Of a stretch of DNA of 36,879 nt, positions 1 through 34,619 are shown in pieces (position 1 is the first letter of the stretch; each line of letters begins with the position of its first letter). Under the pieces are notes generated by a model. That model saw only the letters and a list, made by a program, of their open reading frames with translations. It searched no databases and was not told the DNA's origin. The stretch covers positions 1-36,879 of the forward strand of contig NZ_AMSF01000094.1 of assembly GCF_000334915.1 (NCBI RefSeq). The letters are read 5' to 3'. This stretch comes from Dyella ginsengisoli LA-4. Its GTDB lineage: Bacteria > Pseudomonadota > Gammaproteobacteria > Xanthomonadales > Rhodanobacteraceae. Both the position numbers and the translations under genes were made by a program.

Positions 1-216
1 CGGGGGGGGGCGGCGCACGAAGGCGAGGAACTCGGCGTTGGTCACCGGTTCGGTGCGCAGGGCGAACGGCGCCACCTGCGCCGGGGCGGTCTTGCCGTCG
101 GCCGGCAGCACGCTGGCGAAGCGCCCGCCGGGCAGCGGCACGTACTCGGCGGCACCGGCCGTGGCGCAGGCCACGGCCAGCAGCAGTCCCGCCAGCGCCG
201 GAGCGCGCGGGGTCAT
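1..216 (-). CDS. nirV: NirV-like formylglycine-generating-enzyme family protein, 5' part only
   Basis: The start codon is at 216 and the reading frame stays open to the window edge, so only the first 72 codons are seen. Residues 1-23 are a clear signal peptide (hydrophobic run ending in Ala-Gly-Ala-Ala). Then comes a stretch with PLPGGRF and EPVTNAEFLAFV, the typical N-terminal pattern of the SUMF1/FGE-sulfatase fold. In denitrifiers an exported protein of this fold (NirV) is often encoded straight after nirK. Here the nirK stop is only 2 bp upstream, which implies translational coupling. Its role is not firmly established; a part in nitrite reductase maturation or copper/haem delivery is inferred from synteny. 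The last visible codons lie in a nine-base G run at the contig end, so the terminal prolines may reflect a sequencing edge. Confidence 0.7.
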   Translation of the reverse strand, partial: MTPRAPALAGLLLAVACATAGAAEYVPLPGGRFASVLPADGKTAPAQVAPFALRTEPVTNAEFLAFVRRPPP

Positions 217-218
217 GG

Positions 219-1751
219 TCAGTGCCCCGCGGCCGCGGCAGGCGCCGGCCTGGCGCGCACCTTGGCTACCTCGTCCTTGGTCACCTGGCCGCCGGGGTTG
301 TCCCAGCTGTTGAGCACGTAGGTGAGGATGTTGGCCACCTCGTCGTCGGTGAGCTGGGTCATCGGCGGCATCACCGAGTCGTACTCGACGCCGTTGACGG
401 TCACCTTGCCGTTGAGGCCGTGCAGCGGGATCGCGATCAGTGCGGCCTTGTCCTTGCCGGCCAGCTTCGCCACGTAGTCCGACTTGGCCAGCGGCGGGAA
501 CACGCTGGGCAGGCCGGCGCCGTTGGCCTGGTGGCAGACCGAGCAGGTACCGGTGAACAGCTGCTTGCCGGCGGCGATCTGCTCGTCCTTGCTCAGCGTG
601 CCGGCGGCGTTGGCCTTCGCGGCGGTGGCCACCGCGTGCAGGTTCGGTTCGGCGCGGTCGCCGAGGTAGACCGAGTCGACCTCCTTGCCCGAGTAGATCG
701 CCTTGTTCTCCGGGCCGTCCACCTTGAGGATGCCCAGCGCGCCCTTGTTGAAGGCGCGGAAGATCGAGTGGTCCACCAGCACGTAGCTGCCCGGCACCTG
801 GGTCTTGAACTCGACCATCGCGGCGCCGCCGGAGGGGATCAGCGTGGTCTGCACGTTGTGCTGTTCGACGGTGCCGCCTTCCTGCCGCACCGTGTCGAAG
901 ATCTCGCCGATCACGTGGAAGCTGGACACCAGGTTCGGGCCGCCGTTGCCGACGAACAGCCGCACCGTCTCGCCGACCTTGGCAGTGAGCGCCTTGTCGC
1001 CGGTGAGCGCGCCTTCGTGGCCGTTGAACAGCACGTAGGTCGGCTTCTCGTCGATCGCCTTGTCCATGTCGAAACCCTGGTGGCCCTTCTCGCGGTACTT
1101 GCCGACCGTGTAGAAGTCGCCCTGCATCACGTAATACTCGTGGTCGACCTTGGGCATGCCCTCCGGCGGTTCGACCAGGATCAGCCCGTACATGCCGTTG
1201 GCGATGTGCATGCCGACCGGTGCGGTGGCGCAGTGGTAGACGAAGATGCCCTGGTTGAGCGCCTTGAAGGTGAACTGCGACTCGTGTCCCGGCGCGGTGA
1301 AGCTGGAGGCCGCGCCGCCGCCCGGGCCGGTGACGCCGTGCAGGTCGATGTTGTGCGGCATCTTGGAGTCGGGCGAGTTCTTCAGGTGGAACTCCACCGT
1401 GTCGCCCTGGCGCACGCGGATGAAGCTGCCCGGCACGGTGCCGCCGAAGGTCCAGTAGGTGTAGGTGACGCCCTCGGAGATCGGCATCTCCTTCTCGATC
1501 ACTTCCAGGTCGACGATGACCTTGGCCGGATGGTTGCGGTGGATCGGCGGCGGCACGTTCGGCGGGCTGGTCAGTACCGCGTGGATCGGCTCGCCCTGCG
1601 GTGGGCCGAAGTCGCCGGGAATAGCGCTCTGCGCGGCGGCCTGCGGCGGCGCCGTGCCGGTGGTGGGCGTGGTGGCATCGGGCTTGCCCGAGCAGGCGGC
1701 GATCGCCAGGACGCTGGCGGTGGCCAGCAGGGTGCGCAACAGCGTGGACAT
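219..1751 (-). CDS. nirK: Copper nitrite reductase NirK with C-terminal cytochrome c domain, lipoprotein
   Basis: Reduces nitrite to nitric oxide, the defining step of denitrification. The start at 1751 is chosen because a GGGGAAAG Shine-Dalgarno lies just upstream and the protein then begins with a lipoprotein signal whose lipobox ends at Cys20 (LAIAAC). Two cupredoxin domains follow with copper-ligand motifs: [22 protein letters not shown] (type 1 Cys/His/Met) and the later SSFHVIGE. After a linker, a class I cytochrome c domain has the haem motif CSVCH and a downstream MPPM methionine region. The product is 510 aa, longer than two-domain NirKs because of the fused haem domain, an arrangement known from Ralstonia and Rhodanobacter-type enzymes. 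The fused domain likely accepts electrons from periplasmic cytochromes. It is preceded by an FNR box and followed 2 bp later by nirV. Confidence 0.96.
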
Positions 1752-1809
1752 GATCTTTCCCCTTTCGTTATCCGTGACGACGAGGTTAGGGAGGCCCTTG
1801 GCGGCGCCC

Positions 1810-1823
1810 CTGATACAGATCAG
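1810..1823 (-). promoter_or_regulatory. FNR-type box upstream of nirK
   Basis: CTGAT-N4-ATCAG, a symmetrical variant of the TTGAT-N4-ATCAA consensus. Its centre is 65.5 bp before the nirK start codon. With the centre at -41.5, transcription would begin near 1775, giving a 24-nt leader that contains the Shine-Dalgarno. A TAACCT sequence (1783-1788 on the minus strand) sits about where a -10 box is expected. The likely regulator is the FNR homologue encoded nearby. Confidence 0.8.
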
Positions 1824-1872
1824 TCGCAAGAGCATACGCCTGCGCTGCGACAAGCCGCCACAGCGCAGGCGG

Positions 1873-3114
1873 TCAGCCGGGCCGGCCGTCGGCGCGCGGG
1901 GTGAGGTAGATCCAGGCCGAGCGCAGTACCCACGGCGCGAAGGCCAGCAGCCAGCCGACGGCGGCGAACACCAGCCAGCGGTAGGCGTCCGTGCCCAGTT
2001 CGGCGCGTACCCGCAGCACCAGCACGCCCTGCAGGGCGAGGAAGCACAGCCACGGCACTGCGCCCATCTGCAGCAGCCGGCCGGAGTGGCCCTGGGTGAC
2101 GCGGGTGACCATCGCCACCAGCATCGAGCCGAAGTAGCCGATGGTCAGCACGTGCAGCGGCACCAGGCCGAGCGCCGCCTCGCCACGCAGCGCCAGCCAC
2201 AGGCTCTGCACCGCGAACAGCGCCATCGCCACCGGCAGCCAGGCGAATGCCAGGTGCAGCGCGAACAGCAGGCCCGGGCGCCGCGCCTTCCACGGCTGCC
2301 AGGCGAACGCGTGCCACCCGAACACCAGCGCCAGCGGCAGGTCGGCGAGCCAGCGCCAGGCGCTGGTGCCGGCGGTTTCCAGCGCGATGTGCGCGAGCAA
2401 CAGCACCCAGATCGCGGGCAGGCTCCAGCGCGGGCGCACCATGCGGTAGCCGGGCACCGCGTTGGCGCTGAAGAACGGGATCATCCGGTGGCACACGCTG
2501 AAGTACACCGGCAGCAGAAAGCCGAACACGCCCAGGCGGATCGCCAGCGGCATCAGCCATGCCGGTGCGCCGGCCAGCGCCGCCAGACCCAGGACGAGCC
2601 CGAGCGCGCCCGTCGCCAGGCCCGCCAGGCACGACCATGCGTGGGCGTTGCGCGCTGTCGCAGCGCGCAGCACGCCGGCCAGCGGCAGCAGCGCCAGTCC
2701 GTAGCCGGCCAGCATCAGCGCCACGCCGATCCGCAGCAACGGCAGGCTGCCCAGCAAGCCGGCGTGCGCCAGCAGGTAGCCGCCGAACACCGATCCGGCC
2801 ACTGGCACGTAGCGCGAGCGTGGCAGTGCCGGGCGGTCGAGCCAGCGCGGAAACACGGTCAGCAGGAAGCCGAACATGAACAGCGGAAGCATCCCGTACA
2901 CGGTCAGCAGGGCGTGGCCCCAGGCCGGCGGTACCGGTGGCTGCGGCCACGACGACCAGCCGAAGCGCAGCGCGGCCAGTTCCAGCGCCCACCACGCCAT
3001 GCTGGTCAGCACGGTGCAGGCGCCGGCGAAGAACAGCACGCGATGCGGCGCGCCGGTGAGCGCCGCGGGTGACCACGGCGCCGTTCGGGTGGCTGGAAAG
3101 GGAAGATCGGCCAT
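1873..3114 (-). CDS. nnrS: NnrS family haem-copper membrane protein
   Basis: NnrS proteins are polytopic haem- and copper-containing membrane proteins that accompany denitrification genes and protect against nitrosative stress. The 413-aa product is almost entirely hydrophobic with about twelve predicted transmembrane stretches. It contains recognisable family segments such as [15 protein letters not shown] near residue 60, the [14 protein letters not shown] region, and [19 protein letters not shown] with a conserved His and Gly. The ATG at 3114 is chosen because it begins the family N-terminus (MADLPFP) and fits the FNR box, which would give a leader of about 20 nt. The Shine-Dalgarno is weak. 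It lies between nirK and fnr on the same strand but has its own promoter site. Confidence 0.92.
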
Positions 3115-21927: not shown

Positions 21928-22011
21928 GGCAGCTACCTCGGCCTGCAAGCTGTGAGGGTGACAATTGAACGGGGGCCCACAGACCGTCTCGGTCGAAGTG
22001 TCTCGCTCCCT

Positions 22012-22017
22012 TATACT
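22012..22017 (+). promoter_or_regulatory. -10 box of the left tRNA-Ile2
   Basis: TATACT lies 12 bp before the mature tRNA 5' end. It is conserved in the second copy (29334-29339), so both tRNA genes appear transcribable. Confidence 0.55.
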
Positions 22018-22028
22018 TCCGCGCCTAA

Positions 22029-22104
22029 GGGCCTGTAGCTCAATGGTCAGAGCAGGGGACTCATAATCCCTTGGTTCCAGGTTCGAGCCCTGGCAGGCCC
22101 ACCA
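22029..22104 (+). tRNA. ileX: tRNA-Ile2 with CAU anticodon (left copy)
   Basis: A complete 76-nt cloverleaf with encoded CCA. The acceptor stem is GGGCCTG/CAGGCCC, the D-arm GCTC...GAGC, the anticodon loop CTCATAA and the T-loop GTTCGAGCC. CAT anticodons occur in Met and in Ile2 tRNAs. The anticodon arm and variable region (GACTCATAATC then CTTGGT) follow E. coli tRNA-Ile2, not elongator tRNA-Met, so C34 should become lysidine and the tRNA should read AUA. Confidence 0.88.
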
Positions 22105-22184
22105 ACTTTCCCGCTCGAAGGCTACGCTTGCCAGCGGATGTTCGCGAGACCGGGACGGCGTCAACATCGATTACCCCCAAGCCG

Positions 22185-22877: not shown

Positions 22878-22947
22878 TCCATTTCCACATCCGGGGCAGG
22901 CCAGGAGCCTGTGATCACATCTCGGTCGCTTTTTGGGGATCACGAGT

Positions 22948-23095
22948 GTTGGCGCTCGCGTCGGATTGACCATCGTGCTCGCTTTCGATTGACCACCTCC
23001 CCTGACAGCGAACCCTCGCCGCGCGCCAGGTCGGGCGAAAGCGGCCTTGGTCAATCAATTTTCAGCTATCTGGTCAAATCCAGGCGCGCGCCAAC
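22948..23095 (+). repeat. 148-bp nested inverted repeat, copy 1
   Basis: Begins GTTGGC and ends GCCAAC. Inside, two ATTGACCA motifs in the left half face TGGTCAAT and TGGTCAAA in the right half, so the whole element could fold into one long hairpin. Closely similar to 29143-29290 (same orientation) and related to 26352-26499 (inverted). All three are exactly 148 bp and intergenic. Confidence 0.9.
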
Positions 23096-23153
23096 AGCTC
23101 AACCTCAATCCTTTCGAGAGCCACGATCGGCATTGGGTATGGATCTCTGCCAA

Positions 23154-26182: not shown

Positions 26183-26766
26183 AGGACGATCCCTATTTGA
26201 GGGTGTTGTGAGGCGAACCTACGCCCCGAAATCGAACAAGAATGAGCATTGCTGCGTCAGCGCGGGCTAGTGGGGGAATTACCTAGAGATCTCGAGGGTA
26301 TGGTACGACCCGCGACGAGCGCGCCCCATGTCCCTTTTTTAGGCCCGGCATGTTGGCACGTGCCGAGATTTGGCCAGATAGCCAAAAACTGATTGACTAG
26401 GGTCGGCATCGGCCAATCTCACGCGCGACGAGGGTTAGCTGTCAGTGGATATGGCCAGTCGAAAGTGAGCGCGATGGTCAATCCGGCGTGAGCGGCAACA
26501 TCATAGACTCTGACCCAGTGCCGAAGTCGAAGCACTGACCAACCACTGACCACCTCGATACGGTCAGCAAAGCTTAGGCGGGAGTGCACTTTGTGTGGCA
26601 GCTATTGGCCAAAGCCCACGCTAGACTCCGTGGTCCGGAGCCGCGAGCGAATGTAAGAGGCGACGGGGAATCAATGTTGACTTGCTGCCCTTTCCCGCTA
26701 GCAATCCGCCATGTGGCTAAATTTTCGCGTAGGCTAGGGTTTCCGACCACTCCAAAAAGGACCATT
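26183..26766. other. 584-bp intergenic region holding repeat copy 2
   Basis: No gene is supported. It contains the inverted 148-bp repeat (26352-26499), a cluster of TGACCA-like words at 26535-26570 downstream of it, and the divergent promoters of the PLD gene (minus) and the H-NS gene (plus). It is AT-richer just before the H-NS gene. Confidence 0.5.
26352..26499 (-). repeat. 148-bp nested inverted repeat, copy 2 (inverted, diverged)
   Basis: Read on the minus strand it aligns end to end with copies 1 and 3: GTTGCC at one end and GCCAAC at the other, with conserved GGATTGACCATC and TCAATCAG motifs. It is the most diverged copy but has the same 148-bp length. Confidence 0.85.
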
Positions 26767-28971: not shown

Positions 28972-29350
28972 GATCCGTGGCTAGGCAAACCGTGGCCAGG
29001 AATCCAACTGCCAGTTGAAGCGTCCTCGTTGATTCGAGCAAGTCAGAAATGGGGTGTCGCGCCTGCCGGTAACTTTCTGTGACCACCGTAGCCAACGGTA
29101 ATGAGGCCACCCAAGCCTGCTGGGGGCGCTGCCTTAGCACTTGTTGGCGCTCGCGTCGGATTGACCATCCTGCTCGCCTCCGATTGACCACCTCCACTGA
29201 CAGCGAATCCTCGCCGCGCGCCAGGTTGGACGAAGGCGGCCCTGGTCAATCAATTTTCAGCCATCTGGTCAAATCCCGGCGCGGGCCAACACAGGGGCCC
29301 ACAGACCGCCCCGGTCGAAGTGTCTCGCTCCCCTATACTTCGGCGCCTTA
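28972..29350 (+). other. Intergenic region before the right tRNA
   Basis: The first 170 bp hold nothing recognisable. The rest consists of repeat copy 3 (29143-29290), immediately followed by the direct repeat beginning at 29294. Confidence 0.5.
29143..29290 (+). repeat. 148-bp nested inverted repeat, copy 3
   Basis: Closest relative of copy 1, in the same orientation. It starts GTTGGC and ends GCCAAC only 3 bp before the right direct repeat, so one end of the repeat nearly coincides with the island boundary. Confidence 0.9.
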
Positions 29351-29434
29351 GGGCCTGTAGCTCAATGGTCAGAGCAGGGGACTCATAATCCCTTGGTTCC
29401 AGGTTCGAGCCCTGGCAGGCCCACCAACTTTCCT
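29294..29434 (+). repeat. Right 141-bp direct repeat of the island (includes tRNA)
   Basis: Counterpart of 21972-22112. It contains the second tRNA-Ile2 gene with its own TATACT box (29334-29339) and the shared AACTTTCC after CCA. The flanks diverge immediately outside. Confidence 0.9.
29351..29426 (+). tRNA. ileX: tRNA-Ile2 with CAU anticodon (right copy)
   Basis: Identical over all 76 nt to the copy at 22029. The complete cloverleaf, encoded CCA and conserved upstream -10 box indicate a functional gene. One of the two copies probably arrived with, or was duplicated by, the mobile island. Confidence 0.88.
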
Positions 29435-29451
29435 CCTCTAAGCGTAACCGA

Positions 29452-30849
29452 CTAGCGCGAGGACATCGTCGCCGCCATGGTCAGATAGCCTCGATATTCG
29501 GAGAGTTGCTCATATGCCCGCCCTGACGCTGTGCGAAGCAATTTCTCTGTCATCCTGGCGGCTACAGGAATGGAGGTCCATTTACCATCGGGCACTTCGT
29601 GAGCCAGGAGACGGCTACGAATCGCGTAGTCAATCTCTGCGCGAAGCGCTGGGCTCAGCAGCAGTGGAGAGTACTCGTGGATGAGTCGTCGACCAAAATA
29701 GCGAAGCCGGTCATCTCCTAAGCTTTCGACGATTTGCACACGGGCAGCCCAGTCGACGCTATGAAATAGCTCCATCCGGCGTTCATCATCCCGGCTGATG
29801 AACGTGTCATAGAGCCTCTCCTCAATGAAGGGGGAAACTTCCCGCTTCGCCCTTGCCTCCATCGTTGCCGCCACTAGGCGGGAATGCAGCGCTTTATCTG
29901 CCTTGAATCGCGTTGCCCTGTTGATGATTTCGCTGTCCGACAGCCCACCCTTTACTGCGTCGGGCGCATCCTCAAGTGAGGCAATCATTGGGGCGGCATT
30001 TGTTCGAATACGCCGAACGCGCTTAGGACTCTGGCCGACAAACTCAAGCAACTGCGGGGTAGACAGAGATGTGAGCCAGTCGATATTGACGCGAAGATCC
30101 AGGCCTAGTGACACATTGTCCTGAGATGGGTCCTTGCCGAATACGGCGATAATGTAGTGATAGGGCCGATTGAAATAGAACTCGGTGAGAAGGAATGCGT
30201 CCTCGTCCTCAATAAATGCGGAAACGCTCGCTTTTTTTGAGAATCTGACAAAGCGGTTCCAGCAATCTGGTGCGTTATCGCGGATGCACCTGGCCAGATG
30301 AATGGTTGCCAGTACATCTTCGAGTGCATTGTGTGCAATATGGCCCGAAAATCCATTTCGGCGCGCAACATCTTCCAGTCGGAAGATCGCGCTGCCATAC
30401 GCGTCTTTAGGGATCTCGATACCGCTTGGCTCAAACACCGATGCCTCCTGCAAGAGGTGCATAACATCGGCCCTGCAGTTGCCATTGGTATTGCTGAGAT
30501 ATGGTGGGTGAAGCGTTTGAAAGAGCGCTTGTCGCAGCAAGTGTTCGTCGAAGTTCAGGGAGTTGTATCCGACAAATATGGCCGGCGACCACTCAAGCAG
30601 GGTCGACCTGACCTCGCGCATCATTTCATAGTGCGACGGTAGATCATTGGCCGTTATCTCGCCAATGGTCATCCCATTCACCCGGAGGGCGCCTGGGTGC
30701 GGAATGACATGCGGCCGCAAACGTGAACGTATCTCGATGCGACCGGTTTCGTTGAGGTCCGCATCAGTCCGGATTGCGGCGAACTGGAGAATCTGATCGA
30801 AATCGGTTGCGAGGCCGGTTGTTTCCGTGTCGTAAAAGACAAAACTCAT
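29452..30849 (-). CDS. Exonuclease I (SbcB)-like 3'-5' exonuclease
   Basis: A 465-aa protein from the ATG at 30849, with GGAG about 8 nt upstream; a longer start at 30894 would overlap the preceding gene. It has the DEDDh exonuclease motifs: Asp7 and Glu9 in FYDTETTGL, VGYNSLNFDEHLLRQALF as the ExoI-type second motif, and AHNALEDVLATIHLA as the third with catalytic His and Asp. The region after residue 190 resembles the ExoI SH3-like and helical C-domains only faintly. E. coli ExoI degrades single-stranded DNA 3' to 5' and aids RecBCD-independent repair. This divergent homologue sits in an operon with an XRE regulator and an ImmA/IrrE protease, so a defence or damage-response role is likely. 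Confidence 0.85.
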   Translation of the reverse strand: MSFVFYDTETTGLATDFDQILQFAAIRTDADLNETGRIEIRSRLRPHVIPHPGALRVNGMTIGEITANDLPSHYEMMREVRSTLLEWSPAIFVGYNSLNFDEHLLRQALFQTLHPPYLSNTNGNCRADVMHLLQEASVFEPSGIEIPKDAYGSAIFRLEDVARRNGFSGHIAHNALEDVLATIHLARCIRDNAPDCWNRFVRFSKKASVSAFIEDEDAFLLTEFYFNRPYHYIIAVFGKDPSQDNVSLGLDLRVNIDWLTSLSTPQLLEFVGQSPKRVRRIRTNAAPMIASLEDAPDAVKGGLSDSEIINRATRFKADKALHSRLVAATMEARAKREVSPFIEERLYDTFISRDDERRMELFHSVDWAARVQIVESLGDDRLRYFGRRLIHEYSPLLLSPALRAEIDYAIRSRLLAHEVPDGKWTSIPVAARMTEKLLRTASGRAYEQLSEYRGYLTMAATMSSR

Positions 30850-30877: not shown

Positions 30878-31408
30878 TTATCCTTTGTTTGCAAGCCCTA
30901 TCAAGCGGTTCTGTATAGCGGCGGCGCTGACTTTGAATCGTTTCGCCACAGCAGAGATTGCAGGCTCGTCATCCAGCTCTAACTCTGCTGCCAGCGCATC
31001 TCTAACTAGATTTTCGGGCATCAAAAGCTGGGCAGCGAAAGCGTTTGCTTCAATCTCCAGAGCGTCAGTGCCCGTTGCGGACACCGAGTCTCGATTCATG
31101 GTGAATGACTTATCGACATGTACCTGCTCAGTTATGTAGTCGCGATGAAGGACCAGATGAGCAATCTCATGGGCGATAGTGAATCGCTGGCGGTTTGGGT
31201 GGTGCAGTGCATTTACGCCAATGATGGGCTTGCCATCCTTCACATAAGCCATGCCGGACAGTTCTTCGTCGAGTGGCGCGTACTGCACTATTGCGCCTAA
31301 GCCTTTGGCAATTTTTTCGACTGGCACTGGCACGGTGCTGATGGCGAACTCCTGCAATATGCGAGTCGCTTCTTCTATCGCTCTCGCCTTGTTGTAGGTG
31401 GTTGTCAC
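30878..31408 (-). CDS. ImmA/IrrE family zinc metallopeptidase
   Basis: A 176-aa protein with the zinc-binding HEIAH motif (residues 80-84) and a downstream EIEANAFAAQLLMP supplying the third ligand. ImmA cleaves the ImmR repressor of ICEBs1, IrrE cleaves DdrO in Deinococcus, and CapP cleaves CapH in CBASS operons, all after DNA damage. The GTG start at 31408 overlaps the XRE stop (GTGA), so the two are translationally coupled, as in those pairs. The C-terminus carries a short helical region (AISAVAKRFKVSAAAIQNRL). Its predicted substrate is the XRE protein encoded just upstream. Confidence 0.92.
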   Translation of the reverse strand: MTTTYNKARAIEEATRILQEFAISTVPVPVEKIAKGLGAIVQYAPLDEELSGMAYVKDGKPIIGVNALHHPNRQRFTIAHEIAHLVLHRDYITEQVHVDKSFTMNRDSVSATGTDALEIEANAFAAQLLMPENLVRDALAAELELDDEPAISAVAKRFKVSAAAIQNRLIGLANKG

Positions 31409-31746
31409 GTCTTCTCCGTCTTAGCTTGTGTCGTAGGGACAGAGCCGATGAGCCGTTCAATCTGAGATTTTTGCTCTTGCGTCAACTGCGAGCCGGACAT
31501 CTGTAAAGATTCCGCCGGAGAGTTCTGCACCTTTGGCAGCAGGCTCGCGGCGCTGTCCAACTTTAGAGCTTCTGCAATCTGGCAAATCTGGTGGACGAGC
31601 ACTCGTTGCCTTCCGACCTCGATGTTTGCAAGCGCGGCTCTAGACATACCTGTCAACTGGGCCACCTGCGCCTGCTTCAGTCCCTGCTGACCCCGGCGGG
31701 CCGCGATCATGCCGCCCAATTCCTCATAGAACTGTTTTTCGTTCAT
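31405..31746 (-). CDS. XRE-family repressor, predicted substrate of the ImmA/IrrE protease
   Basis: A 113-aa protein. Residues about 10-60 form an HTH_3 domain (RRGQQGLKQAQVAQLTGMSR then AALANIEVGRQRV). The remaining 50 residues are a Ser/Gln/Lys-rich tail suited to oligomerisation and cleavage. The start at 31746 begins the usual family N-terminus; an upstream in-frame ATG at 31812 would run through the operator and is less likely. Its gene heads the minus-strand operon, and a 23-bp palindrome lies 38-60 bp upstream in the divergent intergenic region. Confidence 0.88.
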   Translation of the reverse strand: MNEKQFYEELGGMIAARRGQQGLKQAQVAQLTGMSRAALANIEVGRQRVLVHQICQIAEALKLDSAASLLPKVQNSPAESLQMSGSQLTQEQKSQIERLIGSVPTTQAKTEKT

Positions 31747-31916: not shown

Positions 31917-32588
31917 ATGAACGACCTTCATAGCCATCCGCCCCAGCAGGAAAAGGGTTCCTTCGCGGCCGTCGTCAACGACCGTTCGGTGAACTTCGAG
32001 GATCCGATGCCTCTGGGAGAGCAAATCCTGGCATCGGCCGGATATGAGCCGGCCGACGAATACGTCCTCATCGAGGAGGCGAGCGTCGGCTCTCGCCTGA
32101 TCAGCCTCGATGAGTCGGTGAAGTTGAACCACGGCACTCCCGCTCGCTTCTTTGCATTTCCGAGCGGCGAGGTCTTCATGTTTACGGTGAACACCCACGG
32201 CTACCAGTGGGGGCGGCCGGATATCCGCGAGAATGAGTTGCGCGAAATTGCCCGCGTCTCGGCATCCGATGTACTCGTGCAGCTGCATGGCGATGCCCCG
32301 CCGGAAGTGATCTCAGAGGGGCAAGTCGTTTCTCTTCAGCCTCGGGGTACGGAGCACTTCCGCACGGAAAGCCGGCTCATCACCGTCTTTATCGATAAGA
32401 CGCCCAAGGAGATCGCTCGCGGCGTTTACACCACGGAGCAGCTGCACACCTTGCTGGGCGTGGAACCAGGGTATCTCCTGAATCTGCAGCGTGATGGTGG
32501 ACTCGAGACGCTGAAACCCGGCCAAAAGACGCGGGTTGAGCCGGGGATGCAGTTCTTTAGCCAAGCGCCGGGTGGAGCGTCGTCCTGA
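31917..32588 (+). CDS. Multi-ubiquitin-like protein with three beta-grasp domains
   Basis: A 223-aa protein from the ATG at 31917 (GGAG at 31906-31909). It divides into three Ubl-like repeats of 60-70 residues. The first is about 15-85 (FAAVVNDRSVNFEDPMPLGE...). The second is about 86-152 (EVFMFTVNTHGYQWGRPDI...). The third is about 153-220 (RLITVFIDKTPKEIARGVYT...). Each has a beta-hairpin, a helix and later strands as in prokaryotic Multi_ubiq proteins. The C-terminus ends ...QAPGGASS: a Gly-Gly followed by three residues, the form of a precursor needing trimming before activation. The next three genes encode an E2, a JAB peptidase and an E1, overlapping end to end. It should be the modifier that is attached to targets. 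Confidence 0.88.
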   Translation: MNDLHSHPPQQEKGSFAAVVNDRSVNFEDPMPLGEQILASAGYEPADEYVLIEEASVGSRLISLDESVKLNHGTPARFFAFPSGEVFMFTVNTHGYQWGRPDIRENELREIARVSASDVLVQLHGDAPPEVISEGQVVSLQPRGTEHFRTESRLITVFIDKTPKEIARGVYTTEQLHTLLGVEPGYLLNLQRDGGLETLKPGQKTRVEPGMQFFSQAPGGASS

Positions 32589-32917
32589 TGGATGCAGCCA
32601 CTGAACTCGACACGCTCAAGCCCATGTGCCCGGGCGCGGCAATTTGGTCGGAAGGAGGGCAGGCTGCCGCCTACCTGCCCTCCTTCCGATTCCAGACCAG
32701 CGAAGGTGAACGGACGATGGACTTGCTGCTCGTCCCGTTCGCTCACTCCGGATACTCCACCAGGCTGTTCTTCAAGGAGGTGCCGCTTCAAGGAAGAGTC
32801 CAGTGGACGCAGCACATGGTTTGTGGCCAGGCATGGTGGACGCGCTCCTGGAATGGGGTGCCTGCGACCCTTCCGTGGCTCCAGATCTTGGGCGCACATC
32901 TGAGGTCTGTGCCATGA
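32588..32917 (+). CDS. E2-like ubiquitin-conjugating protein of the prokaryotic type
   Basis: A 109-aa small protein starting in a TGATG overlap with the Ubl stop. The strands YLPSFRF, MDLLLVPF and RLFFKEVP resemble the E2/UBC core. Cys79 in QHMVCGQAWW, followed by SWNG...WLQILGAHL, is the best candidate for the thioester cysteine; Cys14 is the only other cysteine. The shape is near the short bacterial E2 families, and I cannot name the subfamily with certainty. By analogy with Bil and Multi_ubiq operons it would receive the Ubl from the E1 and pass it to a target, with no E3 seen. Confidence 0.75.
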   Translation: MDAATELDTLKPMCPGAAIWSEGGQAAAYLPSFRFQTSEGERTMDLLLVPFAHSGYSTRLFFKEVPLQGRVQWTQHMVCGQAWWTRSWNGVPATLPWLQILGAHLRSVP

Positions 32918-33426
32918 AGGTCAGGTTCAAGATTTCGAGCCGGCTTCTTGCCGAGATTCGGGAGGATCTATGCCGCCCCCATCATTTCGCGCATGAGCGG
33001 GTCGGTTTCATTGTTGCCGGTCTGGCCAGTTACACGGAGGGGGTTCTGGTGCTGGCTCGAGCATATCGGCCGGTCGCAGATGGGGATTACCTTCATGCGC
33101 CGAGCGTCGGGGCAATGATGGGGCCTGACGCTATTAGGAAGATGCAGGAGTTGGCGCTATTCAAGGGGGAAGCCATCTTCCACGTGCATTCGCATGGTGG
33201 CTCTGGGTTGCCTGGCTTCAGTGGAGTCGACCTCCGGGAGAACGCCAAGTTCGTACCGGACTTTCTGAAGGTGGCGCCGCAAAACATCCATGGCGCCATT
33301 GTTTTGAGCGATGACGGTGCGGCTGGGCAGTTCTGGAAGTCTAGAAACGGCAAGCCAGAAACCATCGATGGTTTTGTGGAAGTGGGTAGCTCGCTTCGGA
33401 AAGGGGGGCGCTATGGACAGGCTTGA
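32914..33426 (+). CDS. JAB/JAMM-family metallopeptidase (Ubl-processing enzyme)
   Basis: A 170-aa MPN/JAMM protein whose start overlaps the E2 stop (ATGA). Catalytic Glu28 lies in HERVGF. The metal site is His92-Ser-His94 in HVHSHGG, followed after 8 residues by Ser103-x2-Asp106 (FSGVD), the JAMM pattern with one extra residue in the loop. In related operons this enzyme exposes the C-terminal glycine of the Ubl and removes it from conjugates. The Gly-Gly-Ala-Ser-Ser end of the Ubl encoded here is a plausible substrate. Confidence 0.9.
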   Translation: MKVRFKISSRLLAEIREDLCRPHHFAHERVGFIVAGLASYTEGVLVLARAYRPVADGDYLHAPSVGAMMGPDAIRKMQELALFKGEAIFHVHSHGGSGLPGFSGVDLRENAKFVPDFLKVAPQNIHGAIVLSDDGAAGQFWKSRNGKPETIDGFVEVGSSLRKGGRYGQA

Positions 33427-34330
33427 GCGGCAGAGTTTCCTTGGCCCAAAAAGCACCCAGGTCCTGCACAACCTGACCGTGGGACTCATCGGCCTTGGTG
33501 GTGGCGGATCGCATGAGGTGCAACAAATGGCGCACCTCGGGATTGGTGGGTATGTCCTGGTCGACCCGGACACCATTGATTGGACCAATACCAACAGGTT
33601 GGTCGGAGGCACGCTGGGTGACGTCGAATGTAAGCGATCCAAGGTCCATATTGCCGAACGCATCATTCGCGGACTACAACCCGATGCGCGCATCAAGATG
33701 GTGCAGGGACGCTGGGAAACTGTGCTTGAAGAATTGAAGGGATGCGACATCATTCTTGGCGCCGTCGACTCCTACGTCGCACGCGACCAGATTGAGCGCT
33801 TCTGCAGGCGCTTTCTTATCCCCTATATCGACATCGGCATGGATGTCCTAGCCCTTGGCGCCGACCGCGGGTATCTGGTTTCGGGGCAGGTAATCCTGTC
33901 TTCTCCTGGTCGTCCATGCCTTTGGTGCTGCGGCTTCCTCGATGAGGAAAAACTGAGAAAAGAGGCGGCGCAATACGGTGGCGCCGGTGGGCGTCCGCAG
34001 GTTGTCTGGCCAAATGGCGTGCTTGCTTCAACGGCGGTGGGATTGCTCGTCCAACTGGTTTGTCCATGGCACACCAAGACCATCGACTTCACGTACCTGG
34101 TTTATGACGGCAACCGAGGGACCATTACGCCCAGCCCCTGGGTCGATTCACTACAAAGTCATACCTGCCCACATTTCCCTGACTCCGAGGTCGGTGACCC
34201 AGGATTCGATATTCGCAAGCTAAGCAACACGAACAGCGCGAACGTGGCCCCCAACATAACCCGACCCAACCCACGCGACATCAGCAAGCGCGCCTGGTGG
34301 CGTCGCCTTCTGCCCCTGGGTAGGAGTTGA
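33413..34330 (+). CDS. E1-like ThiF/UBA-family Ubl-activating enzyme
   Basis: A 305-aa ThiF/MoeB-fold protein whose start lies 14 bp inside the JAB gene. The nucleotide-binding loop is GLGGGGS (27-33). The Mg/ATP residues follow: Asp51 and Asp53 in VDPDTID, Asn61-Arg62 and Lys77. Asp119 lies in GAVDS. Cys169, Cys172, Cys173 and later Cys252 (CLWCC, HTCPH) look like a zinc site. A distinct catalytic cysteine is not obvious, and one of these may serve. It should adenylate the C-terminal glycine of the Ubl and hand it to the E2. The last 60 residues are basic and low in structure. Confidence 0.9.
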   Translation: MDRLERQSFLGPKSTQVLHNLTVGLIGLGGGGSHEVQQMAHLGIGGYVLVDPDTIDWTNTNRLVGGTLGDVECKRSKVHIAERIIRGLQPDARIKMVQGRWETVLEELKGCDIILGAVDSYVARDQIERFCRRFLIPYIDIGMDVLALGADRGYLVSGQVILSSPGRPCLWCCGFLDEEKLRKEAAQYGGAGGRPQVVWPNGVLASTAVGLLVQLVCPWHTKTIDFTYLVYDGNRGTITPSPWVDSLQSHTCPHFPDSEVGDPGFDIRKLSNTNSANVAPNITRPNPRDISKRAWWRRLLPLGRS

Positions 34331-34382
34331 GAGCCTACCGGCATTCACCTTCACCGCATCCAAACACTCTGGAGAACGAACT

Positions 34383-34619
34383 ATGGCGCTCTACAAATAT
34401 GCTCAGAAGTTGGCCCAGTCGCAGGATGCGGCATTTGACGCAGTTCATGCTCCTGGCAACCCTGCGCAGCATCCGGGCATCTATAAGTGCACAAACTGCG
34501 GAGACGAAATCGCGATTGCAGGCGGCCATATTCTTCCGCCACAAAATCACCGTCAGCACAACCCGTTGAAAGGTCCAATCAACTGGAAGCTCGTTGTCTA
34601 TCCAGTACAAGAGCGCTGA
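34383..34619 (+). CDS. Small zinc-ribbon-like protein
   Basis: A 78-aa protein with GIYKCTNCGDEIAIAGGHILPP (split here as GIYKCTNCGDEIAIA and GGHILPP) and conserved His and Trp residues, NHRQHNP...NWKLVVYP. The single Cys-x2-Cys plus two or three histidines may bind one zinc. TCTGGAGAACGA gives a Shine-Dalgarno. Similar small proteins are widespread and uncharacterised. It lies 52 bp after the E1 gene on the same strand and may be the fifth operon member, perhaps as an adaptor or target; this is inference. Confidence 0.7.
   Translation: MALYKYAQKLAQSQDAAFDAVHAPGNPAQHPGIYKCTNCGDEIAIAGGHILPPQNHRQHNPLKGPINWKLVVYPVQER

Follow-up and report, generated by a model that had tools for sequence, protein, structure and literature searches.

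A diverged polyUbl/Bub operon, probably on a tRNA-associated island, in Dyella ginsengisoli LA-4

Results

A four-gene ubiquitin-like operon conserved across phyla

Contig NZ_AMSF01000094.1 of Dyella ginsengisoli LA-4 (36,879 nt, the whole of which we call the window) carries an operon for a ubiquitin-like protein (Ubl) and its putative conjugation machinery, which is a diverged subfamily of the known polyUbl/Bub class. We equate here the polyUbl operons (class 6e of Iyer) with Bub, or bacterial ubiquitination-like, operons. Within this class, sequence comparison supports a distinct subtype, marked by the E1 tree, a motif in the E2-fold protein, the tail of the Ubl, a JAB peptidase split from the E1 and the fact that no DUF6527 gene was found. 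Our evidence comprises the genes present and their conservation, the predicted folds and motifs, the regulatory neighbours and an island-like composition. Our joint reading, to which we assign a probability of about 0.72, is that of a diverged polyUbl/Bub operon that is induced by DNA damage, lies on a tRNA-associated island and works, as proposed below, without cysteine.

The operon consists of four genes, all on the plus strand between positions 31917 and 34330, whose products are a Ubl of three beta-grasp domains, a protein with an E2 fold, a peptidase of the JAB type and a single-domain E1 (Table 1). Successive genes overlap, through TGATG (Ubl/E2), ATGA (E2/JAB) and 14 nt (JAB/E1), and an ATG fits the start of the Ubl gene at 31917. 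An earlier note on this DNA had described four such overlapping genes, and its coordinates, overlaps and domains are borne out.

Table 1. Coordinates of the operon, its divergent neighbours and nearby features in the window
Feature	Position	Strand	Remarks
Second copy of tRNA-Met region	29291..29442		tRNA at 29351-29426 (+), ARAGORN; just before the exonuclease gene
ExoI/SbcB-like exonuclease, third gene of the cassette	29452..30849	-	PADLOC RTasSbcB, E 2.6e-100; PDB exonuclease I, E 1e-26
ImmA/IrrE (M78) metallopeptidase, CapP-like	30878..31408	-	PADLOC capP, E 2.8e-36; Peptidase_M78, E 5.3e-26; HEIAH intact
XRE-type helix-turn-helix (HTH) repressor, CapH-like	31405..31746	-	PADLOC capH, E 1.4e-11; HTH_3
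Ubl, 223 amino acids (aa)	31917..32588	+	two N-terminal Multi_ubiq domains, third C-terminal beta-grasp domain, flexible tail ...QAPGGASS
E2-fold protein, 109 aa	32588..32917	+	no invariant Cys; AlphaFold (AF2) model, 44-row alignment, hhalign
JAB/JAMM metallopeptidase, 170 aa	32914..33426	+	conserved E28, H90, H92, H94, S103, D106
E1-like adenylyltransferase, 305 aa	33413..34330	+	one ThiF stretch; probable Zn site C169, C172, C252, H254
Small zinc-ribbon open reading frame (ORF)	34383..34619	+	real as an ORF; membership in the system not supported

Using the E1 as query over the GTDB genome collection, we retrieved 63 candidate stretches, which gave 47 loci whose titles name Pseudomonadota, Acidobacteriota, Nitrospirota, Planctomycetota, Bacteroidota, Bacillota, Ignavibacteriota and Binatota. 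The Ubl-E2-JAB-E1 row stands on one strand in 43 of the 47. Since so many relatives of the E1 lie in this row, the arrangement is not a matter of chance, and the compact bacterial Ubl pathway proposed in the earlier note holds. Single-sequence phmmer searches recovered the E2 in 43 loci, the JAB in 46 and the Ubl in 31; once the ORF adjoining the E2 was read, a Ubl was found in 43 loci and an E2 in 44 (in L040 the E2 is fused to the Ubl), so that for 12 of the 43 Ubls the assignment was made by eye, on their place beside the E2, and not by phmmer. The four loci that are incomplete as far as read (L015, L018, L034 and L041) each lack a recognised Ubl and, except for L015, a recognised E2 as well. 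L034 has the E1 alone, in a short frame and with no JAB, and the JAB of L018 is short. JAB and E1 form one ORF in 6 of the 47 loci and are separate genes in the window. Two of our alignments, A2 and A3, hold 40 and 36 rows, not all.

The modifier and its tail

The first protein had been predicted to contain beta-grasp folds, and this is what we find. PF14452 (Multi_ubiq, Pfam) matches three stretches of it (E 1e-23), and its AlphaFold model, with a predicted local distance difference test score (pLDDT) of 90.5 that falls to 48 in the final block, displays a beta-grasp-like strand-helix pattern three times. Foldseek matches the model to the multi-ubiquitin structures 9cd2, 9d5a, 9d59, 9d5b and 8u38 (E down to 2.4e-17); the best come from E. 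coli, Citrobacter and Methylobacterium brachiatum, and those from Citrobacter and M. brachiatum were deposited as filaments. Superposition on 9d59, 9d5b and 8u38 covers 142-146 columns, with TM by target of 0.83-0.85 and a root mean square deviation of 2.0-2.2, while the matches to 9cd2 and 9d5a are longer but looser. The multi-ubiquitin proteins differ, however, in that the best-aligned profile stretches end before most of the window-type third domain.

The fused triple Ubl, which the earlier note had suggested might help to define a subtype, is already known: triple multi-ubiquitin structures have been solved, and Iyer 2006 (PMC1779556) gives two to three Ubl repeats with, in a subset, a distinct third Ub-like domain at the C terminus. 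Nor can it serve as a marker of the subtype. By eye, the relatives' Ubls have one, two or three domains, and triple Ubls occur in the window's clade as well as in a Bacteroidota clade of the E1 tree; with domain numbers so assigned, starred branches of the tree require at least two changes, and the triple Ubl therefore defines no single clade.

The window-type Ubls share instead a C-terminal motif. G-x-[SA]-[SA] is present inside the last six residues of 42 of 44 Ubls, the window's included, and stands at the very end of 38. In the Ubl-E2 fusion of L040, the junction reads G-G-S-S-S, and in a canonical fusion (L059) T-T-E-G is found there. Since the L040 motif lies where a cut site would be expected, it supports the tail as such a site, and we infer that the JAB may cut after the glycine of G-x-S-S. 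We also considered that the tail is a mere by-product of a downstream ribosome-binding site. The E2 ORF starts 1-12 nt past the Ubl stop in L026, L028, L029, L033, L045 and L047, and five of these six spaced loci keep G-x-[SA]-[SA] (L028 has SSAS), which speaks against a by-product without settling the matter.

An E2-fold protein with an invariant serine

In a 44-row alignment of the second protein, Y56, L60, W73, W83, S87 and L105 are invariant and H104 is kept in 43 rows. The most frequent cysteine column holds Cys in 26 rows and is Val in the window, whose own cysteines recur in only 17 (C14) and 2 (C79) rows. No Prok-E2 model of Pfam, Prok-E2_E (PF14462) included, matched any of the 44 members at E 0.1, and the family profile had no match among PDB sequences at E up to 1, though BubB is present there (9eae).

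The kinship became apparent with nine canonical-operon E2s of the Prok-E2_E type, gathered from plasmids and genomes for this test. Aligned with them by hhalign, the window-type E2s give a probability of 97% (E 8.9e-11), and Ser87 falls opposite their invariant Ser. This serine belongs to an S-x-H motif that is invariant in all nine, which is our own observation in these sequences and not a criterion taken from the literature. The profile match and the aligned Ser87, together with a histidine that is not kept, lead us to read the window protein, on sequence grounds, as a Bub-type E2 with the Ser in place and the His missing. The earlier note's assignment of an E2 fold thus stands by profile and is weak by structure: the AlphaFold model is confident (pLDDT 95.5), but in its Foldseek list Atg10, Atg3 and Citrobacter BubB (TM 0.55) are mixed with small heat-shock proteins and unrelated folds.

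The window-type E2 profile matches 4 of 369 genomes of the class, the window's own included, one of them weakly (1.2e-4) and with a canonical make-up. Prok-E2_E matches 8 of 398 genomes of the phylum, and the window's genome is not among them.

JAB peptidase and E1

The JAB residues listed in Table 1 are kept in 46 or 47 of 47 rows (E28 has one gap). The JAB profile matches Citrobacter BubCD with E 0.0013 for one sequence and 0.051 for two, and D106 lies opposite an Asp that differs between the BubCD sequences of the PDB, one of which is named D104A. The E1 matches PF00899 (ThiF) in its single stretch with E 2.5e-26, and its best PDB match is again Citrobacter BubCD (E 1e-15). G27, G30 and G32 are present in 48 of 48 rows, and C169, C172, C252 and H254, with no other Cys kept throughout, in all 46 rows that reach them; these four residues form a probable zinc site. 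Position 131 is Cys in 19 of 48 rows. Of the Pfam families named in the earlier note, Multi_ubiq and ThiF were found, Prok-E2 was not, and Prok-JAB matched 3 of 40 JAB members, the window's JAB remaining sub-threshold.

In the E1 tree, from which the L034 and L049 rows were dropped, 46 window-type E1s (window included) stand apart from three canonical Bub E1s with support 100/99 and a branch of 2.62; the canonical rows are long branches. Compared with the 29 more distant of 40 plasmid matches listed (73 records in all), the window E1 has 26.5-34.6% identity over part of its length.

A diverged member of the polyUbl/Bub class

For class 6e, the table of Iyer 2006 lists a polyUbl, an inactive E2/RWD-like domain, a JAB-E1 and a metal-binding protein, and the JAB-E1 operon classes allow the JAB to be fused or adjacent to the E1 (PMC1779556). 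The canonical form is seen on Synechocystis pSYSX and on a Mesorhizobium plasmid. The window shares with it the order Ubl-E2-JAB-E1, so that this order is not the distinctive feature suggested in the earlier note; a multi-domain Ubl, the window's falling within one to three Multi_ubiq-type domains; an E2 fold without the catalytic Cys and with an invariant Ser (the fold in the window being seen by profile and only weakly by Foldseek); and a JAB next to a ThiF-type E1. In Synechocystis the neighbours, too, include HTH and M78 genes.

Several features set the window apart from these operons. JAB and E1 are separate in the window, its E1 is distant from the three canonical ones, its E2 lacks S-x-H and is unmatched by Prok-E2_E, and window-type Ubls end in G-x-S-S, whereas those of Synechocystis and Mesorhizobium end in Gly. 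It is by these marks, rather than by gene order or triple Ubl, that the distinct subtype put forward in the earlier note is supported. DUF6527 is a further difference: both canonical operons have such a gene downstream, and three DUF6527 queries matched none of our 47 loci. We take this gene, as found in Synechocystis, to encode the class 6e metal-binding protein. In its account of the class, Iyer 2006 describes this protein (C-x3-C-x35-38-H-x2-C) as also seen and does not state it to be universal (PMC1779556), and the negative result is therefore not treated as excluding membership.

Nor is the zinc-ribbon gene that the earlier note had placed at the end of the row supported as a fifth component. 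Searched with phmmer at E up to 0.01, it has no relative in any of the 47 loci (best 0.55), and among 20 genomes it is present in its own only.

A divergent CapH-CapP-exonuclease cassette

Upstream of the operon, and divergent from it, lie genes for a CapH-like repressor, a CapP-like peptidase and an ExoI-like exonuclease. As with CapH and CapP elsewhere, an XRE-type repressor gene, next to a defence-type operon, is followed by the gene of an HExxH-bearing M78 peptidase. Run over ten window proteins, PADLOC matched only these three and, with generic E1-E2 models, the E1.

Such neighbours are common among the relatives. Iterated profiles, which may include other M78 or HTH proteins, detected within 3.5 kb upstream a CapP-like gene in 28 of 46 loci, a CapH-like HTH gene in 28 and both in 24, with 25 of the 28 CapP-like genes on the opposite strand; in five of the 46 loci the upstream DNA was at most 1.5 kb. 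Single-sequence phmmer over whole loci gave 14 CapP-like and 10 CapH-like genes. These frequencies agree with the report of CapW or CapH+CapP with 219 of 544 Bub operons (PMC13373217); the same source reports that CapP cleaves CapH upon binding single-stranded DNA (ssDNA). A further neighbour scan covered 84 of the 126 ORFs upstream and 77 of the 117 downstream, the ORFs having been chosen with a simple rule on codon positions. WYL proteins make up 5 of the 84 upstream proteins. Among the 77 downstream ones, PADLOC assigns 7 to the IetS type and 5 to the IetA type.

The exonuclease was found by phmmer in 1 of 47 loci (L016) and is consequently not a usual member of the system. The same three genes occur in a row in L016 and in L080-L084, the latter being five from a set of ten plasmid records with a match to the exonuclease. 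In all five records that were read, the HTH, M78 and exonuclease genes are divergent from an operon, which is a window-type Ubl operon in R. leguminosarum and Methylocystis, a DUF7665+ThiF operon in R. anhuiense and Mesorhizobium AR02, and a SMODS+SLATT operon, like that of CBASS (cyclic oligonucleotide-based antiphage signalling systems), in Pseudosulfitobacter. Because it stands divergent from three kinds of operon, the cassette appears to move between defence operons. The HExxH of the peptidase, as well as D-x-E and H-x4-D of the exonuclease, which we take to be its motifs, are kept in 7 of 7 aligned sequences.

We rejected the idea that this cassette is new. A review describes Cap18, a 3'-5' exonuclease, as coexisting with CapW or CapH+CapP in CBASS, where it may regulate through elimination of ssDNA or ssRNA (PMC10419184); the window's cassette is hence a variant, which differs in that its exonuclease matches four PDB exonuclease I sequences at E 0.001, none of them labelled Cap18. 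L024 was likewise rejected as a further cassette, since its two upstream genes have no HExxH and it is absent from the CapP list.

The window-type Ubl operon of L024 has upstream of it, at 4-2989 (minus strand), a pair that looks Xre-RES-like by eye, after which comes an exonuclease of the RNase_H_2 type; an Xre/RES pair is annotated at the same position in a canonical Mesorhizobium Bub operon. Under the same cassette as the window's, L080 and L082 encode a DUF7665 protein, a ThiF-domain protein and other uncharacterised proteins, possibly another ThiF-based defence type. In L003, L006, L007, L009, L010 and L054, genes for an AAA ATPase and an S8 protease follow immediately after the E1; as a set they are IetA/IetS-like by PADLOC, with a per-protein assignment for L003 only.

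Genomic setting

At about 22 kb the GC content falls from 0.65-0.72 to 0.53-0.59. A 152-nt direct repeat (21969-22120 and 29291-29442, 94%) carries a tRNA-Met region in each copy, the duplicated tRNA genes being placed at 22029 and 29351 by ARAGORN. A specific E1 is present in 1 of 40 genomes, the window's own (1.4e-124); the best match in any other (6.5e-21) is confined to model positions 7-146, which are the general ThiF part. The operon is probably on a mobile, tRNA-associated island, in what looks like tandem islands at one tRNA site.

Several further features of this region were seen. Between the two tRNA-Met regions lies a 7.3-kb segment of low GC that holds an H-NS-like gene and shows weak matches, HNH-like and PLD-like, and the operon's cluster begins just past the second copy. 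A 150-nt repeat occurs three times (22947-23096, 26351-26500 and 29142-29291), two copies being direct (92%) and one inverted (79%); it has no Rfam match there at the gathering threshold. Further copies were found once elsewhere in the genome and, among the matches listed, in one genome of the same genus. Near the contig end, 36206-36823 encodes a 205-aa ORF with no Pfam match, which by eye we take to be somewhat like a TnsA-type protein.

Discussion

A possible working of the system, in which the regulation of the window operon, the cut site, the serine chemistry, the filament, the targets and the defence role are all inferred, would run as follows. DNA damage or phage attack would give rise to ssDNA and so activate the CapP-like peptidase, which would cut the CapH-like repressor and open the divergent Ubl operon, while the ExoI-like enzyme may remove the ssDNA and thus limit or reset the signal. 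The JAB would trim the Ubl tail to expose a C-terminal glycine, which the E1 would adenylate. The Ubl would then pass to the E2-fold protein and on to target proteins without cysteine thioesters, the invariant Ser87 being most likely the acceptor or a key site residue, and the JAB could remove it from the targets again. The two N-terminal Ubl domains may drive self-assembly, as in the solved multi-ubiquitin filaments. Work by Gong in 2025 is said to describe calcium-dependent filaments, and work by Ye in 2026 reportedly describes Ubl-serine ester chemistry for Bub.

Several points weigh against this joint reading. In 18 of 46 loci the search upstream of the operon found no CapP-like gene, and 3 of the 28 that were found are not divergent. 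A scan of ten ORFs recognised no integrase. Foldseek ties the E2 model only loosely to E2 structures, the best E of all its matches being 1.3, with none below 0.001. Position 89, that of the S-x-H histidine, is His in 0 of 44 window-type E2s, and the lack of this residue may mean that the active site is dead or rearranged; the role of the invariant Ser could be structural, and the conserved Ubl tail might serve a role other than removal. Lastly, Cys is frequent in the E1 at position 111 (41 of 48 rows) and at 117 (31 rows; Ala in the window), which leaves some room for a cysteine step in the E1.

The alternative that survives best concerns purpose: the operon may serve a general response to DNA damage, as a module that tags proteins of the host, and take no part in defence. 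Regulators of the CapH/CapP kind do respond to DNA damage, and PMC13373217 itself leaves such a role open for Bub. As the operon is sporadic and low in GC, and its relatives adjoin Iet-type and other PADLOC families, we regard this as plausible but on balance improbable. A second alternative concerns the E2-fold protein, which might be a catalytically dead, RWD-like scaffold, with the E1 itself handing activated Ubl, as an adenylate or from an E1 residue, to targets. Iyer 2006 judged the E2-like domains of class 6e inactive for want of Cys (PMC1779556), and the missing histidine, the weak structural similarity to active E2s and the frequent Cys at E1 position 111 all fit this view. However, S87, W73 and W83 are invariant in 44 of 44 rows, and the Ser is common to the nine Bub-type E2s, which seems beyond the needs of a scaffold; such a role is in our estimate doubtful. 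Our joint reading, by comparison, keeps the E2-fold protein as a step in transfer. A bolder form of it would be a second, separate cysteine-free conjugation chemistry, in which the Bub Ser is kept, the neighbouring His is replaced by H104 of the C-terminal helix, the E1 stands alone and the Ubls require a cut after the glycine of G-x-S-S. We put this forward tentatively, rating it as unlikely; if true, bacteria would have, besides Bil and canonical Bub, a third type of ubiquitin system.

The remaining alternatives fare far worse. The earlier note had pointed to a relation with BilABCD, and an antiviral Bil operon with an extra Ubl domain would account for the order Ubl-E2-deubiquitinase-E1, the JAB deubiquitinase and the Ubl, among whose good matches 8u38 was labelled Ubl-BilA by its depositors. 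However, as described in PMC11354881, BilD combines an inactive with an active adenylation domain, and BilB has a C-E-H-H site in which Cys138 is catalytic, whereas the window E1 has a single ThiF stretch in 305 aa, with no two-part E1, and no Cys is invariant in the 44 rows of its E2 family, hence no C-E-H-H site. On these two features we rejected membership, prompted as it was by the fitting gene order, and the best PDB match of the E1 is BubCD; a Bil operon is thus very improbable. A sulfur-carrier pathway of the ThiS/MoaD type, for a cofactor or siderophore, is suggested by the ThiF-like E1 but hardly credible next to an E2-fold protein and a multi-domain Ubl, with no metabolic enzyme family matched by at least three of the 77 downstream proteins scanned.

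In two plasmid records of close relatives in which both genes are annotated, the E2 and JAB are called hypothetical proteins only, and the system is for this reason easily missed in surveys. As a diverged subfamily of the polyUbl/Bub class, it makes cysteine-free transfer a pointed prediction, drawn from its sequences. Its compact, widely spread stand-alone proteins are suited to testing ubiquitin-like transfer without the usual cysteine, and the system is equally suited to asking whether DNA-damage-controlled conjugation operons defend against phage.

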